A stretch of DNA of 64,000 nt from Bacteroidales bacterium (GTDB lineage Bacteria; Bacteroidota; Bacteroidia; Bacteroidales; Bacteroidaceae), in NCBI GenBank assembly GCA_029218405.1, contig JAQXRG010000124.1:1-64000 (forward strand), written 5' to 3'. The notes beneath the pieces were generated by a model. That model saw only the letters and a list, made by a program, of their open reading frames with translations, had not been told where the DNA came from and made no database searches. The position numbers and the translations under genes were made by a program. This document shows, piece by piece, positions 2,905 to 58,003 of this stretch. The first letter of the stretch is position 1. Each line of letters starts with the position of its first letter.

Positions 2905-3247
2905 TACGCTCGGCATGAGCATTGTCTAACGGGTGCAAGTCCCGAAGCCACCCTAATAGCGGGAAGGCTATACCCCAAGGCAAGGGTGTCCATCGTGAGG
3001 CGGAATCTGAAGGGAGCCGTCGGCAAACATCTGGCATAACGAACAGAAACTTCATACAAGGCATTTGACCGTGGTTAACCGTATGGTGCAGCAAACCATC
3101 AACCAGGTATTGACTATCATCTACGAGCTTCAGTTCTTCAGCTTCCGCCCGAGAAGCGGATGTCTGAACGCACAGCGAGAGGTACAGAAGACGGTTGATG
3201 AAAGCTACAGGTCCGTCAACATGAAAGTAGGAGATGAACACCTATAA
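2905..3247 (+). pseudogene. Degenerate group II intron: 5' ribozyme (domain I) fragment fused to a fragment of its reverse transcriptase
   Basis: Group II intron domain I-like string ggcatgagcattgtctaacgggtgcaagtcccg...ggcaagggtgtccatcgtgaggcggaatctgaagggagccgtcggcaaacatctgg...gaacagaaac, followed by an RT-like peptide VNRMVQQTINQVLTIIYELQF..FRPRSGCLNAQREVQKTVDE (cf. RT motif FGFRPGRxxHDAL); no catalytic YADD, no domain V. Confidence 0.75.
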
Positions 3248-3320: not shown

Positions 3321-4613
3321 CTACAGGGCATATAACACGGCGAACAGGGGGATGTTCTCCATCCACGTCTGGTCCCGGTAATCGGACATGGACAGTCGCA
3401 CGCCTTTCATCCCCTCATGGGCGGCTACAAAATGGCTGAGCGACTTCGCCTTCACGTTCTCCTCCGCCTTCACCTCGACAGGAAGTAGGCGGCCTCCCTT
3501 CTGCACGAGGAAGTCCAGCTCCCCGTCACTCCTTTCACTGCTCCAGTAATACACCTGCAGGTCCTCCCTTGCCACCATCTGCTGCAGCACATATTGTTCC
3601 GTGAACATTCCCTTGAGCTCCTCAAAGACCTGGTTGCCTATCAGCATCATGTCTGCGGGCGCTCCGCTCAGGGCGGCCAGCAGTCCCAGGTCCAGGAAGA
3701 ACAGCTTGAAGGCGGAGAGGTCCTCGTAGAACTTCAGGGGGACACCCGCTTTCCGGACCCGCGGCACCTTCGTCAGTATGCCACAGTCCATCAGCCACTG
3801 GATGGCTACCTCGAACTCGGCGGCACGGGCACCTTTCTTGAGCACGCCATAGATGAACTTCCTGTTCTCCTTCGCCAGCTGGGAGGGGATGGAGTTCAGC
3901 ACCATCAGTATCCGCTGCACGTCGGAGGTCGGAGCGTGCTTGGACACGTCATTCGCGTACGCGGTCAGTATGTTCTCCTGTATCCGCCGCACCTTCGCCA
4001 GGTTGCCTTCCTGCACATAGCTGAAGACGGCCTCCGGCATCCCACCCACATAGTAGTATTGCCGCAGGAGGTCTATGAACTTGGATTTCAGTATCTTCAG
4101 GAGCTGCCAGTCCGGACATGGCAACAGCCGTGCCAGCGGCTCGTTGCCCGTCGCCCACAGGAACTCCTCAAAGTCCAGCGGATGGATGTCCAGCATGTCT
4201 ACCTTCCCGACCGGAAACGAGGTGCCCGGATGGAGCGCTATGCCCAAGAGGGACCCTGCCACCATCACATGGTATTCGGGAGCGTTCTCACAGAAGTACT
4301 TGAGTACGCCCAGCCCCCTGTTTACCTCTTGTATCTCGTCCAGGATAATCAGTGTCTCGCCAGGCCGGGGGATAACCCCTGTCAGTGCCTGCAGGGCGGT
4401 GAGGATGCGTGGCACGTCATAATCGGTATCGAAAATGCCCCGCAACCGTTCGTCAATGTCAAAATTGGCGTAAAGTACACTGGCGTACTCCCTGCTGCCG
4501 AACTCTTTCATCAGCCAGGTTTTCCCTACCTGACGTGCTCCTTTGAGAATCAGCGGCTTCCTGTGCGGGTCCTGTTTCCATTCCAATAGTCGGGTATATG
4601 CTTTTCGTTTCAT
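3321..4613 (-). CDS. AAA family ATPase, AAA_14 + DUF4143 type
   Basis: Walker A LKGARQVGKTWL, Walker B LIILDEIQ, C-terminal DUF4143-like region with VEVKAEENVKAKSL; ATG at 4613. Confidence 0.85.
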   Translation of the reverse strand: MKRKAYTRLLEWKQDPHRKPLILKGARQVGKTWLMKEFGSREYASVLYANFDIDERLRGIFDTDYDVPRILTALQALTGVIPRPGETLIILDEIQEVNRGLGVLKYFCENAPEYHVMVAGSLLGIALHPGTSFPVGKVDMLDIHPLDFEEFLWATGNEPLARLLPCPDWQLLKILKSKFIDLLRQYYYVGGMPEAVFSYVQEGNLAKVRRIQENILTAYANDVSKHAPTSDVQRILMVLNSIPSQLAKENRKFIYGVLKKGARAAEFEVAIQWLMDCGILTKVPRVRKAGVPLKFYEDLSAFKLFFLDLGLLAALSGAPADMMLIGNQVFEELKGMFTEQYVLQQMVAREDLQVYYWSSERSDGELDFLVQKGGRLLPVEVKAEENVKAKSLSHFVAAHEGMKGVRLSMSDYRDQTWMENIPLFAVLYAL

Positions 4614-4617
4614 GACT

Positions 4618-4700
4618 ACACTTTTTCGGATGAATAATTGCCACAAAGATACACTTTTTCGGACGAATCATCACTATAACTGCCCACTTTTTCGGACGAA
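4618..4700. repeat. Three direct repeats (cactttttcggaYgaa) at exact 33-bp spacing upstream of the AAA_14 ATPase
   Basis: Copies aligned on 'cac' at 4619, 4652 and 4685. Confidence 0.8.
4644..4651 (-). promoter_or_regulatory. Bacteroidota -7 box (TATCTTTG) of the AAA_14 ATPase gene
   Basis: Minus strand TATCTTTG, matches TAnnTTTG, about 30 bp upstream of ATG. Confidence 0.5.
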
Positions 4701-4874
4701 CAGGGAATCAAGTGAAGATGCCCCGAATAGAACTCCAGCAGGGACTATACGTCACTTGGTGTCGAACTTGATGAGGCAGGTCATCCAATGCATTAATCGG
4801 AAAATGGTGTAGGTGACTGCAACTTGTACAAAAATCCTGGTAGAGAAGCAGCGGCGGGTAATTTGGCCGGGTCT

Positions 4875-5104
4875 GAGAATGCCTGTGCTGAGGTTACAAG
4901 AATGCCTGTCGTTACGGTACAACGACAGGCATTCTTGTTCTGTAACGACAGGCATCGTCAGGAGGTAACAACAGGCATTCTTCCACCGTAACAACCGCAG
5001 TTGTGACGGTCTCACGAACGAAGTCATGAGCTCCTCATGAACCCGTTCGTCAGCCCCTCACGAACCCGTTCATGAGGGAGTGACAAACCCAGTCGTGAGC
5101 AGGC
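4875..5104. repeat. 23-bp-period tandem array A (10 units), semi-palindromic degenerate units
   Basis: Units at 4875, 4898, 4921, 4944, 4967, 4990, 5013, 5036, 5059, 5082, all 23 bp; e.g. aagaatgcctgtcgttacggtac, aacgacaggcattcttgttctgt, cacgaacccgttcatgagggagt. Confidence 0.9.
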
Positions 5105-5914
5105 TTATTTCGGCAGGCCGAAGGCAACCGTCATCTCGTGCATCTGCTCGTCCGTCATGCCCTCCGGCTCGAAGCCCATGGTGCGGGCGTTCAGGTAAAT
5201 CTGGGCCGCCTTGGAGAGTACGTCAATCTGGTCGAAGGCATCCATCACATCGTCGCCTACGGCAAACACACCGTGCTTTTCCCACATCACTACATCGTAG
5301 TCATCGAGCTCGGCCAAGGTAGCTTCCGCCAGGTCCACCGAGCTGGGCATCTTGTAAGGTACGATGCCCACGCCGCGCGGACAGAAGGCCTTGGTTTCCG
5401 GAATCATGCTCCACAGCAGGTGGGTCATGGCGTCCTTCTCTAAGAACCGTTTGTTGTGCGTCATGGCCACTAGGTCGATGGGGTGCGTGTGCACGGTCGC
5501 CTTCTTGGCGCCACCCTGGCTGATGAGCCAGTTGTGGACAGACAGGTGTGCGGCCACTTCGGAAGTGGGCACCACGGTCTGGTCGGCGATGATGACATAG
5601 CTGGCGCAGTCGTCGCAGATGCGGATGATGGAGCCGTTCGCCATCGGCCAGCGGGCCAGGTCGCGCATGCGCTTGCCGGTGCCCTTGCAGTAGAAATAGC
5701 AGCCCTTCAGGTGGGGGAGGGTAGCGCCGATGGACTTCGGCTCGGTGAGGGCCGGCAGCTGGCGGATCTCGTCGTCCACAAATTCAGTCACGTTGATGGT
5801 AATGTTGCCGCCGTTGCGCTCGGCCCAACCTTTCTGCCACAGATAGCCGGCAACTTCGGCTACTTGGTTGATTTCATGGGCCAATGCGGGGCGTCCTTCA
5901 AGAATTGATTTCAT
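5105..5914 (-). CDS. rhaD: Rhamnulose-1-phosphate aldolase
   Basis: 269 aa class II aldolase fold, NGGNITINVTEF, HTHPIDLVAMTH, WEKHGVFAVG. Confidence 0.9.
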   Translation of the reverse strand: MKSILEGRPALAHEINQVAEVAGYLWQKGWAERNGGNITINVTEFVDDEIRQLPALTEPKSIGATLPHLKGCYFYCKGTGKRMRDLARWPMANGSIIRICDDCASYVIIADQTVVPTSEVAAHLSVHNWLISQGGAKKATVHTHPIDLVAMTHNKRFLEKDAMTHLLWSMIPETKAFCPRGVGIVPYKMPSSVDLAEATLAELDDYDVVMWEKHGVFAVGDDVMDAFDQIDVLSKAAQIYLNARTMGFEPEGMTDEQMHEMTVAFGLPK

Positions 5915-50769: not shown

Positions 50770-52107
50770 TTATTCGAAGGAGCCCATGCGCAGCATGTTC
50801 ACTTCCTGCTCCGTGAGGAAGCGCCAGTCGCCCCGGCGCAGGCCCTTCTTGGTCAGTCCGGCAAAGTACACGCGGTCCAGCTTGGTGACACGGTAGCCCA
50901 GTGACTCGAAGATACGGCGCACGATGCGGTTCTTCCCCGAATGAATCTCAATGCCCACCTGCGACTTGTCGGTGTCCGAGGCGTAGCTGATGGAGTCGGC
51001 GTGGATGTCGCCGTCGTCCAGCGTGATGCCGGCGGCAATCTGGTCCAGGTCCGACTTGGCTACGTTCTTGTCGCAATACACATGGTAGATTTTCTTCTTC
51101 AGGAACTTGGGGTGCGTCAGCTTCGAGGCCAGGTCTCCGTCGTTGGTCAGCAGCAGCACGCCCGTGGTGTTGCGGTCCAGACGGCCTACCGGATAGATGC
51201 GCTCCTTGCAGGCATCCTTGACGAGGTCCATCACCGTCTTGCGTTCCTGCGGGTCGTCGGAGGTGGTGACACAGTCCTTCGGCTTGTTCAGCAGCACATA
51301 GACCTTGCGCTCGATGTTCACCGGCTGGTCGTGGAACTTGATCTCGTCGGAGCGTTTCACCTTCGTGCCCAGTTCGGTCACCACTTCGCCGTTGACCGAC
51401 ACGACACCGGCGGTGATGAACTCGTCCGCCTCACGGCGTGAGCAGATGCCGGCGTTGGCCAGGAACTTGTTCAGACGGATGGGCTCGTTGGGGTCCGCCA
51501 GGATTTCCTTGTACTCCATCTGTTTCTTGTGGCTGTACTTGGCATGGGGGTTGTAGTCGGCTGTGCGCGGACGGAACCCACCTTTGTTGGCACCGTAGCC
51601 TCCGCCAGACTGTCCCGGACGGCGGTTGTTGCCGTAGGGACGCTGCTGTCCTCCCTCGCCGTTGTTGAACCGGGGACGGTAGGAGCGTTGCTCGCCGCTC
51701 TCATTGTTGTAAGAGGGACGGTTGCCGTACGGGCGCTGCGGACGCTCGCTTCCTTCGTTCCGGTAGTTCGGGTTGTACGGGCGGCGCGGGCGGTCGCTGC
51801 CGCCTTCGTTGCTGTTGAACCGGGGACGGTAGGAGCGTTGCTCGCCGTTCTCGTTGTTGTAAGAGGGACGGTTGCCGTAGGGACGCTGCGGACGTTCGCC
51901 TCCTTCGTTCCGGAAGTTCGGGTTGTACGAACGGCGCGGGCGGTCGTTGCTGTCACCGTTGCTGTTGAAGCGGGGACGGCGGTTCCCGTACGAACTGCCG
52001 CCTTCGTATTTGTTGTATCTGTTCGCTCCTTCTCTGTTGTACGATTTGTAACCTTCGCGGCCAGACTGGCTGTATTCGCCATCAAGTCTGTTTTCGTTTT
52101 CTGCCAT
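50770..52107 (-). CDS. RluB/RsuA-type rRNA pseudouridine synthase with repetitive Arg/Asn/Tyr-rich N-terminal domain
   Basis: S4 domain (IRLNKFLANAGICSRREADEFI), PVGRLDRNTTGVLLLTNDGDLASKLTHPKF; N-terminal GERPQRPYGNRPSYNN repeats. Confidence 0.9.
   Translation of the reverse strand: MAENENRLDGEYSQSGREGYKSYNREGANRYNKYEGGSSYGNRRPRFNSNGDSNDRPRRSYNPNFRNEGGERPQRPYGNRPSYNNENGEQRSYRPRFNSNEGGSDRPRRPYNPNYRNEGSERPQRPYGNRPSYNNESGEQRSYRPRFNNGEGGQQRPYGNNRRPGQSGGGYGANKGGFRPRTADYNPHAKYSHKKQMEYKEILADPNEPIRLNKFLANAGICSRREADEFITAGVVSVNGEVVTELGTKVKRSDEIKFHDQPVNIERKVYVLLNKPKDCVTTSDDPQERKTVMDLVKDACKERIYPVGRLDRNTTGVLLLTNDGDLASKLTHPKFLKKKIYHVYCDKNVAKSDLDQIAAGITLDDGDIHADSISYASDTDKSQVGIEIHSGKNRIVRRIFESLGYRVTKLDRVYFAGLTKKGLRRGDWRFLTEQEVNMLRMGSFE
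51671..52000 (-). repeat. 150-bp (50-aa) in-frame tandem repeat within the pseudouridine synthase gene
   Basis: cggggacgg anchors at 51671, 51821 and 51971; protein repeat RPRFNSN..RPRRPYNPNYRNEGSERPQRPYGNRPSYNNE.GEQRSY. Confidence 0.85.
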
Positions 52108-55056: not shown

Positions 55057-57168
55057 TTAGCGGATGCTGATGGCCACTCCGCCGCTGGGCGCCAGGCGTT
55101 GCCGGAGCACGGTCTTTGCCGTCACCTTCTTCCGGGTGATGACGTACGCCTTGGGGTTGGTCTGCCAGTGCGCGTCCTTCGCGTCGGCATAGAGGGTCGC
55201 CTCGAAGGTGCGTCCGGCCGGCAGGAAGCTGAGGTCGATGACCGCCGTGCGGGCGTTCTCGTCGGTGATGCCGCCCACATACCATTCTTCCTTCCCTTTG
55301 GCCTTGCGGGCGATGGTGATGTAGTCACCGGGTTCCGCTTCCAGCACCTTCGTGTCGTCCCAGTCCACCGCCACGTCCTTGATGAACTGGAAGGCATCGG
55401 GGTAGCGCTCGTAGTTGGGATAGAGGTCCGCCGCCATCTGCAGGGGACTGTACATCGTGACGTAGAGGGCCAGCTGCTTCGCCAGCGTGGTGCTGAGCCG
55501 GGCCGGGTTGGAACCATAGACGGAGAGGTCGCCCTCGAAGATGCCGGGCGTATAGTCCATCGGTCCTCCCATCAGGCGGGTAAAGGGCAGGATGGTGGTG
55601 TGGTCGGGCCGGTTGCCGTTGAACGACTCGAACTCCGTGCCGCGGGCCGACTCCTGGGCAATCCAGTTGGGATAAGTGCGGCAGAGCCCTGTGGGACGTA
55701 CCGCCTCGTGCGAGTTGACCATGATGCGGTGGCGCGCCGCCTCTTTCGCCACATGGAGATAGTGGTTCACCATCCACTGTCCGTCGTGGTGCTCGCTGCG
55801 CGGGATGAGCGGACCCACATAACCGGTCTTCACCGCGTCGTAGCCGTGGGCGTTCATGAAGCGGAAGGCATCCGCCAGCTGCCGCTCGTAGTCAAGGGCG
55901 GACGAGGTGGTCTCGTGGTGCATGATAATCTTCACCCCTTTCGCCTTGGCGTAGCGGTGCAGCTCCTCGACATCAAAGTCGGGATAGGCGCGGGTGAAGC
56001 TGTAGATGCGTTCTTTGGCGTAGGCCCAGTTGTCTTCCCATCCTTCGTTCCATCCTTCCACCAGTACGGCGTCGAAGCCGTGCCGGGCGGCGAAGTCGAT
56101 GTATTCTTTCACGTGGGCCGTGTTCGCGCCGTGGTGCCCGTTGGGCGGCAGCTGGCTGTAGTCAGTCTCGCCGATGCGGATGTCCTGCGTGTCGGTGTAG
56201 GCCCAGGTGGAGCCGCCGCCGGTGAAGTATTCCCACCATACGCCCACGTACTTGGTGGGATGAATCCACGAAGTGTCCTCCAGAGCGCAAGGCTCGTTCA
56301 GGTTGAGGATGAGGGAGGAGGCCAGCAGGTCGCGCGCGTCGTCACTGACGATGAGGGTGCGCCAGGGCGATACGCTGCCGGTCTGCAGGTAGCCCTTCAC
56401 ACCGTTCTTGTCGGGCGTGAGGTGGGTGCTCAGCACAAACCGGCGGTCGTCTAAGTTGAGGTGCATGGCGGGATAGTCCACCAGTGCCGCCTCGTGCAGG
56501 CTGATGTAGAGTCCCTCGGCCGTCTTCAGCAGCAGCGGCGTCTGTACGGCGAGGGTGGGAGAGGGCGACTTGCAAGCCAGCCCTTCCTCGCGCACGGCAG
56601 GCATCCGTTCCGCCACTTCCGACAGGCGGGAGGTGGTGGTGGGGAATTCGTTGGTGTCATAGTCGGCGGGCAGCCAGAAGGCGGTATGGTCGCCGGTCAG
56701 CCGGAACTCGGTCAGCTCTTCGGCCAGATTGAAGTGGCGCAGATGAGGCTGGGTGGGAAACTCGTAGCGGAATCCCAGTCCGTCGTCGAAGAGGCGGAAC
56801 CGGAGGTGGAGGCGGCGTTGGCTTTTCTCCTGCTCCAGCTCTACGGACAGCTCGTTGTGGTGGTCGCGGATGCGGCTGTACTGTCCCCATACGGGGGTCC
56901 ATTCGGTGTCGGAAGTACGCTCCGTGTGGGACAGGATGCGGAACCCACTGCTGTAGTCGATGTTGGGGAGGATGCGGAAGCCCATGCGGCTTTCTTCCAC
57001 CACCGCCTGTCCTTTATAGAATAAGGAATAGGCGGGCGTGCGGTCTTCCGTCAGGCGGAACCGCAGTTCGAACTGTCCGTTGGGGGAACGGAGGGTTTGG
57101 GCGACGGTCGGCAATGCCGTCAGCAGCCCTACGAGGAGGGCGAGTAAGGGTCTGTTCAAGTGTCTCAT
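55057..57168 (-). CDS. Glycoside hydrolase family 97 (SusB-like alpha-glucosidase/galactosidase)
   Basis: Signal peptide, LRSPNGQFELRFRL, YVGVWWEYFTGGGSTW, MVNSHEAVRPTGLCRTYPNWIAQESARGTEF. Confidence 0.93.
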   Translation of the reverse strand: MRHLNRPLLALLVGLLTALPTVAQTLRSPNGQFELRFRLTEDRTPAYSLFYKGQAVVEESRMGFRILPNIDYSSGFRILSHTERTSDTEWTPVWGQYSRIRDHHNELSVELEQEKSQRRLHLRFRLFDDGLGFRYEFPTQPHLRHFNLAEELTEFRLTGDHTAFWLPADYDTNEFPTTTSRLSEVAERMPAVREEGLACKSPSPTLAVQTPLLLKTAEGLYISLHEAALVDYPAMHLNLDDRRFVLSTHLTPDKNGVKGYLQTGSVSPWRTLIVSDDARDLLASSLILNLNEPCALEDTSWIHPTKYVGVWWEYFTGGGSTWAYTDTQDIRIGETDYSQLPPNGHHGANTAHVKEYIDFAARHGFDAVLVEGWNEGWEDNWAYAKERIYSFTRAYPDFDVEELHRYAKAKGVKIIMHHETTSSALDYERQLADAFRFMNAHGYDAVKTGYVGPLIPRSEHHDGQWMVNHYLHVAKEAARHRIMVNSHEAVRPTGLCRTYPNWIAQESARGTEFESFNGNRPDHTTILPFTRLMGGPMDYTPGIFEGDLSVYGSNPARLSTTLAKQLALYVTMYSPLQMAADLYPNYERYPDAFQFIKDVAVDWDDTKVLEAEPGDYITIARKAKGKEEWYVGGITDENARTAVIDLSFLPAGRTFEATLYADAKDAHWQTNPKAYVITRKKVTAKTVLRQRLAPSGGVAISIR

Positions 57169-57275
57169 AGTTTCGTAAAATGCTTGGTAGGCAAAAGTAG
57201 TGTTTTTTTCTCCAAGATGCAAGCGAAAAAACGAGGAAGAAGATTTTGTTTTACAAAAAACGAGGGTCGCACCCT

Positions 57276-57505
57276 TACGACTGCGTTCGTTACCTCCTCA
57301 CGACTTCGTTGGTGGCCCTCTGACGAACGCGTTCGTGACAACCTCACGAACGCAGTCGTCAGACCGTCACGACTGCGGTTGTTACGGTACAAGAATGCCT
57401 GTCGTGACCTTGCAAGAATGCCTGTCGTTAGGAGGTAAGAATGCCTGTTATAAGGAGGTCACAATGGGCAGTCTCGTCCCCTCGAAACAGGCATGTTGCT
57501 ACTCC
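57276..57505. repeat. 23-bp-period tandem array B (8 clear units plus 2 decayed), homologous to array A in inverted orientation
   Basis: Units at 57276, 57299, 57322, 57345, 57368, 57391, 57414, 57437, 57460, 57483; e.g. cacgaacgcagtcgtcagaccgt, cacgactgcggttgttacggtac, aagaatgcctgtcgttaggaggt. Confidence 0.88.
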
Positions 57506-57526
57506 CTATACCCGTGTTTTTGGTGA

Positions 57527-57617
57527 TTTTGCTGTCACCTACACCTTTTTTCTTTTATTCGATTGGTACATAACAAGATAGGTAGGTAGCAGAAGGGTGA
57601 CAGAGGTGACAGCAAAA
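57527..57617. repeat. 14-bp perfect inverted repeat flanking a T-rich loop beside array B
   Basis: ttttgctgtcacct (57527-57540) / aggtgacagcaaaa (57604-57617). Confidence 0.8.
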
Positions 57618-58003
57618 GTATGAAATATACATTATTTAACTAAAAAAATAGCCAAAAAACTTCTAATTCGTCAGAGTTTCATGTCACGCTTTGGAACCTG
57701 AATTATGAACGGTTCCAAAAAGAGTTCACCAAAGAGGGAAACGAGTTCCTAAAACCACAAAGGAAAAAGCTATGAGACAGAGACACCGTTCACGGTTATC
57801 GTTGTGAATCTGTCACCAGTGTATATGCGAAGTCTTTCATCTGAATCTCATATATTTCCTGCTTCAGCATCCATTCTCTGACGCTCTCACTTTCCGTATG
57901 GATGTGTACATCGTAAAAGCGAGGGAGAGCACGCCGCTCTCGCCTCGCTTGTCCGGACAGGCCCTCTTTTCGGAATGCTGTCACAGGCCGGTTAGATAAG
58001 AGA

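Follow-up and report, generated by a model that had tools for sequence, protein, structure and literature searches.

The window considered here is a stretch of 64,000 nucleotides (64 kb) from the MAG of a gut Phocaeicola. It hosts two arrays of short tandem units belonging to one family, called A and B, and the features relevant to them are the following (for array A the minus strand reflects the family orientation adopted, from E-type to M-type units):

3321..4646, minus strand: AAA_14/DUF4143 ATPase gene, on the opposite side of array A from rhaD
4785..4852, minus strand: partial copy of the tail, a sequence found after the M end of several arrays of this genome (flank BLAST, alignment and own-genome search)
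4875..5104, minus strand: array A, ten 23-bp units
5105..5914, minus strand: rhaD-like class II aldolase gene, its stop codon abutting array A
55057..57222, minus strand: GH97 glycosidase gene, on the 5' side of array B
57276..57505, plus strand: array B, nine scored units plus a degenerate one, same family as A, E-type then M-type
57506..57652, plus strand: array B tail, about 150 bp, common to at least four other arrays

The first-pass annotation had described array A as ten 23-bp blocks covering 230 bp without indels, the last unit ending at 5104 and the rhaD stop starting at 5105. Both statements hold: the units tile 4875-5104 exactly, and base 5105 opens the minus-strand rhaD stop codon. 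The autocorrelation proposed as a check gives an identity of 0.594 at lag 23, 0.495 at lag 46 and 0.435 at lag 69, well over the background (mean 0.249, sd 0.070, lags 5-59). Units 4898-4920 and 4921-4943, singled out as reverse complements of each other, are mutually inverted indeed. E-type units (CACGAACGNNTTCGTG-like) lie by rhaD, and M-type units (AAGAATGCCTGTCGTT and its complement) at the far side. Between array A and the AAA_14/DUF4143 gene, just upstream of the latter, CACTTTTTCGGAYGAA occurs in three direct copies (4629-4702). No named repeat family matched array A, as had to be checked, and an Rfam scan gave no hit at the array; the sole match in the window is a group II intron (RF02001, D1-D4) at 2989-3212, with an E of 1e-6. 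A further tandem repeat, with a period of 150 bp, 2.1 copies and 91% matches, resides at 51663-51979.

The array unit consists of a 16-bp dyad core and a 7-bp spacer, set at a rigid pitch of 23 bp, about 2.2 helical turns. The core had been estimated at roughly 17 bp and the spacer at 5-6 bp; both figures are corrected here, the dyad being even-centred. Each half-site reads A-B-R-A inwards from either side of the core. In 96 units of the source genome found by BLAST, positions A2, A5, T12 and T15 deviate from the consensus in 1.6% of cases, vs 47% at the other core positions, and such near-invariance among variable neighbours sustains the early suggestion of selection on spacing or symmetry. 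The own-genome figure is the least biased; the pattern used to search GTDB representatives required A/A/T/T, and the invariance in non-Phocaeicola groups is thus partly ascertained. Adjacent units are directly similar to each other, more so than pairs drawn at random within a genome (z 4.2-7.2), as tandem duplication predicts, which is in keeping with the copying mechanism with a fixed step that had also been envisaged. The orientation of neighbouring units is random in Parabacteroides. Stray units within 140 bp outside arrays, only four in all, are invariably in the 23-bp phase. Half-site shuffling in five groups revealed no covariation between core halves (z from +1.2 to -5.1), nor was there a clear signal of covariation across spacers. 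Selection for hairpins is therefore not supported, and the lack of covariation, together with the similarity of neighbours, is better explained by tandemly duplicated dyad sites at which a protein would contact double-stranded DNA. Arrays share regular spacing with CRISPR loci, but lack near-identical repeats and unique spacers; cores are variable and spacers measure about 5-7 nt, which supports the initial exclusion of CRISPR.

Array B and its tail belong to a larger set. The source genome contains at least 15 arrays of paired half-sites at the 23-bp pitch, and the further genomic copies that were looked for are thus present; BLAST with array A or B retrieves arrays on more than 12 other contigs of the 2.71-Mb draft, and one further array follows a DUF4248 gene on contig C70. 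Many share the same order, E-type units (CACGAACG-NN-TTCGTG-like) followed by M-type units (AAGAATGCCTGTCGTT or its complement). The tail found at the M end is complete in five arrays (B and four others) and partial in two more, including A, and all strong tail matches in the own-genome search adjoin an array. The tail of array B holds an imperfect inverted repeat, GCTGTCACCTACACC ... GGGTGACAGAGGTGACAGC. The genome-wide family, its relatives in other genera, its location at gene 3' ends and its link to DUF4248, all dealt with below, had escaped the first-pass annotation.

The distribution of the arrays is uneven. Clear arrays have been identified in two of 62 Phocaeicola genomes, the source genome and P. 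plebeius SUG230, with a weak match in one more. An array at rhaD is absent in nine of ten orthologues from other Phocaeicola, and the P. plebeius locus may retain a one-unit relic; array A at rhaD is specific to the source lineage. A 2.3-kb contig of the source MAG (L071, L100) shows approximately 99% identity to P. plebeius SUG230 across a large part of the contig, unlike rhaD, only 86% identical; either recent transfer or binning contamination may account for the contig. A pattern of 3.2 units matched 94 times in the source genome, and never in 394 other broadly drawn Bacteroidales genomes. The same pattern at a 24-bp pitch, taken as control, had no matches in the 395 genomes, source genome included, and the architecture of the arrays therefore exceeds chance. 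The pattern search was preferred to a CM search of the 395 genomes, in which few candidates per genome were scored, and which was thus insensitive. The scan of GTDB representatives identified at least 109 stretches, a lower bound of prevalence; among the matches listed, most reside in Segatella, Parabacteroides, Bacteroides, Mediterranea, Phocaeicola and Tannerellaceae, and some of those in other phyla are probably chance matches or unrelated repeats. Core sequences are genus-specific, and the skeleton is common to these genera. A phage origin was rejected, the pattern giving one single match in 2.9 million viral contigs. P. plebeius carries about nine copies with common flanks, which include DUF4248 and HU-HIG relics. 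Parabacteroides arrays have no common flanks, except for a few pairs resembling one locus in different species, and orthologous arrays are kept between Parabacteroides species while the flanking sequence diverges. Neither the array family nor its link to DUF4248 was found described in the open-access literature.

Outside Phocaeicola, dispersed arrays mostly reside no more than some tens of bases from a stop codon, the intergenic contexts being convergent in 20 cases, tandem in 23 and divergent in 6 (greedy ORF calls; the set includes a few P. plebeius loci). Similarly, in the PGAP-annotated records of P. distasonis TSDC17.2-1.1, six of 11 arrays are in convergent, four in tandem and one in divergent context; the dispersed arrays of this species resemble its cassette array. 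Many large records of this strain set labelled as plasmids (NZ_OY7257xx-OY7259xx) carry housekeeping genes (rplS, hisS, topA), and resemble chromosome pieces. Neither BLASTP clustering nor Pfam revealed a neighbour gene common to dispersed arrays. In two genomes, a single gap separates a Parabacteroides array from a Cas12a gene (L171 1-3377; L203 2803-6590, where the gene is broken into two reading frames); both cases represent one locus, and Cas12a is judged a chance neighbour.

A gene recurrently associated with the arrays is the one encoding DUF4248 (PF14053). In all five DUF4248 loci of the source genome and P. plebeius, an array is interposed between DUF4248 and an HU-HIG gene, and the repeated four-unit element of P. 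plebeius has the DUF4248 3' end at one side and an HU-HIG gene, or a relic of it, at the other. Burroughs and colleagues are said to have devoted a paper to HU-HIG domains. Upstream of DUF4248 in the cassettes of these two genomes reside primase/helicase genes of three types, DnaB/Toprim, PriCT_2-DUF3987 and BT4734-VapE; the cassette on C78 showed no intact primase. The annotated cassette reads BT4734/BF3469 - DUF3987 - DUF4248 - HU - smalltalk - amidase, and some neighbour genes vary between cassettes; a search for the function of this cassette, recurrent in gut Bacteroidales, returned none. In Parabacteroides ZJ-118 (L340) and P. distasonis (L345, L364), as well as in Bacteroides Lapin-019 and Ca. 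B. merdavium (Bacteroides loci L344, L350, L352), an array built of the unit type of the respective genome starts at the DUF4248 stop or close to it; in Parabacteroides and Bacteroides, this applies to one or two of the DUF4248 genes in each genome. At an identity threshold of 0.59, repeats at lags 19-26 are enriched downstream of DUF4248 (12 of 35 genes vs 21 of 812 control windows, p = 7e-10), the 35-gene set overlapping the genomes from which the link was found. Plasmid and phage records supplied 11 further DUF4248 genes, of which five have a downstream signal at lags 21-23; in one of the five, L369, the signal resembles a simple short repeat. Unrelated DUF4248 genes are often followed by different 21-24-bp arrays. 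Behind that of B. finegoldii (L371 2705-2795), TAAAGCnnnGCTTTA dyads are arrayed at a 22-bp pitch from the stop onwards; this array differs in sequence, has the same architecture, and showed no dispersed copies in the records searched. Further unrelated arrays, of 22-24 bp, come after other DUF4248 genes in Parabacteroides STD2_99 (L347 363-470, L339 1400-1500). The array-linked DUF4248 proteins of Bacteroidaceae form one clade with Mediterranea L360 (support 100/99), those of Parabacteroides being separate (few columns).

Exceptions have been encountered as well. In six other Phocaeicola genomes, no array of this kind accompanies the DUF4248 genes examined. The drafts of S. copri iAQ1173, Parabacteroides STD2_99 and CASFXH contain dispersed arrays, and the array-linked DUF4248 subtype was not found in them; Mediterranea L360 has no evident array of this type, though a member of the clade, and about one unit is all that accompanies S. 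hominis L351. The cases of S. copri iAQ1173, STD2_99, CASFXH, Mediterranea L360 and S. hominis L351 either weaken the link or reflect the draft state of genomes. Sequence and fold searches of the PDB with DUF4248 gave nothing convincing, and the AlphaFold model has a pLDDT of 80.8, confident in the core. Because no PDB fold was matched, DNA binding by DUF4248 is predicted from its charge, ranging from +4 to +6, and from gene context.

The arrays found behind DUF4248 genes suggest that the family may have its own candidate binding sites scattered over the chromosome. We give about even chances to the notion that the arrays are a dispersed system of predicted binding sites for DUF4248, and perhaps HU, of which array A is one member. 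The DUF4248 protein, small and basic, is encoded in a cassette of the order primase - DUF4248 - array - HU-HIG, and would bind the sites cooperatively as a dimer, perhaps along with the HU-HIG protein; the lack of covariation between halves speaks against hairpins, and is compatible with half-sites independent of each other. The array of the cassette would be the home site, involved in autoregulation, or serving as origin or partition site of the cassette, and dispersed arrays would be secondary sites, generated by duplication and tandem growth, and plausibly surviving mainly just past stop codons. At gene ends, a bound filament may serve as a boundary for chromatin or transcription, or the array may simply be tolerated. 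Alternatively, the binder could be encoded by a different gene in tight linkage, HU-HIG for instance.

The nearest described element is BrickBuilt, a 23-nt minisatellite MITE of Porphyromonas gingivalis (PMC4596501). Both are made of 23-nt tandem units without spacers, reside at dispersed intergenic loci in Bacteroidales, and undergo turnover in unit number; the tail of own-genome arrays resembles the leader/tail idea of BrickBuilt. It may be hypothesized that the arrays are MITE-like selfish repeats carrying a minisatellite, moved by an unlinked transposase, the 23-bp pitch being a mere product of slippage. The multi-copy, patchy occurrence, the tail common to several arrays, the flanks and relics shared by the P. 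plebeius copies and the lack of array A at rhaD in most other Phocaeicola speak for this hypothesis. Yet, the BrickBuilt consensus AGAYCATARTATCCTCTCRTRTG lacks the A..A......T..T skeleton on both strands, and has no matches in the window with up to three mismatches; no link to DUF4248 has been reported for BrickBuilt; and the IS5-type TIR GAGACCTTTGCA, absent beside arrays A and B, has one chance-level match elsewhere in the window. Identity with BrickBuilt is thereby dismissed. No target-site duplication was seen by eye, four invariant positions are not expected from neutral slippage, Parabacteroides arrays mostly lack common flanks, and orthologous arrays outlast the divergence of flanking sequence. 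Altogether, a selfish origin of this kind seems rather unlikely.

The arrays are also reminiscent of REP/BIME sequences and RAYTs, as they are short palindromic intergenic repeats, numerous in a genome, lineage-specific and close to gene 3' ends, and a gene, here DUF4248, bears its own copy of the repeat; they differ in being rigidly tandem, with no hairpin covariation. The GTAG/CGTC tag is absent from the unit position profile, and Y1 (TnpA_REP) transposases (PF01797) are missing in six of six Phocaeicola genomes, including the source (83% complete), with positive controls; a RAYT/Y1 transposase was accordingly rejected. For all their likeness to REP/RAYT and BrickBuilt, the arrays are members of neither. 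A role at the RNA level, in which REP-like hairpins after stop codons end transcription or shield mRNA 3' ends, would agree with the location of the arrays, and the folding of array B plus tail beats that of shuffled sequences (z -6.4). In contrast, paired positions do not covary, neighbouring units are randomly oriented in Parabacteroides, and array A has no T-tract terminator; a hairpin or terminator function was rejected for the lack of covariation and of a terminator-like site, and the RNA scenario is very improbable. Somewhat less remote, still improbable, is the view that arrays are iteron-like origins or parS-like centromeres of the primase cassette, solo arrays being scars of integrated or decayed cassettes. 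Tandem protein-binding sites of about 22-23 bp, and cassettes with primase/helicase and HU genes, are traits shared with plasmid iterons and ParB-parS systems; several cassettes have primase/helicase, HU and array side by side, and the 21-23-bp tandem sites match iteron spacing, that of R6K and RK2 iterons being compatible. The units are dyads spread over the chromosome, rather than asymmetric iterons, and no Rep or ParB homologue was identified. Moreover, Parabacteroides solo arrays sit between ordinary genes, with no cassette relics, and the cassettes examined look chromosomal, the 'plasmid' records being non-mobilizable and possibly chromosome pieces.

A broader extension of the binding-site reading is tentative, and somewhat less probable than the reading itself. 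DUF4248 might be a large family of Bacteroidales array-binding proteins, each with its own tandem dyad array directly behind the gene; in some lineages the cognate arrays may have colonised the whole chromosome as a protein-specific gene-end network, which would organise or insulate the genome, or mark self for the primase-HU cassette. If so, DUF4248 and its cassette would gain a first testable role, and the arrays would be a second gene-linked system of dispersed palindromes besides REP/RAYT, made of tandem double-stranded DNA sites instead of hairpins. According to this extension, the array behind each DUF4248 gene should be bound by the protein which that gene encodes.
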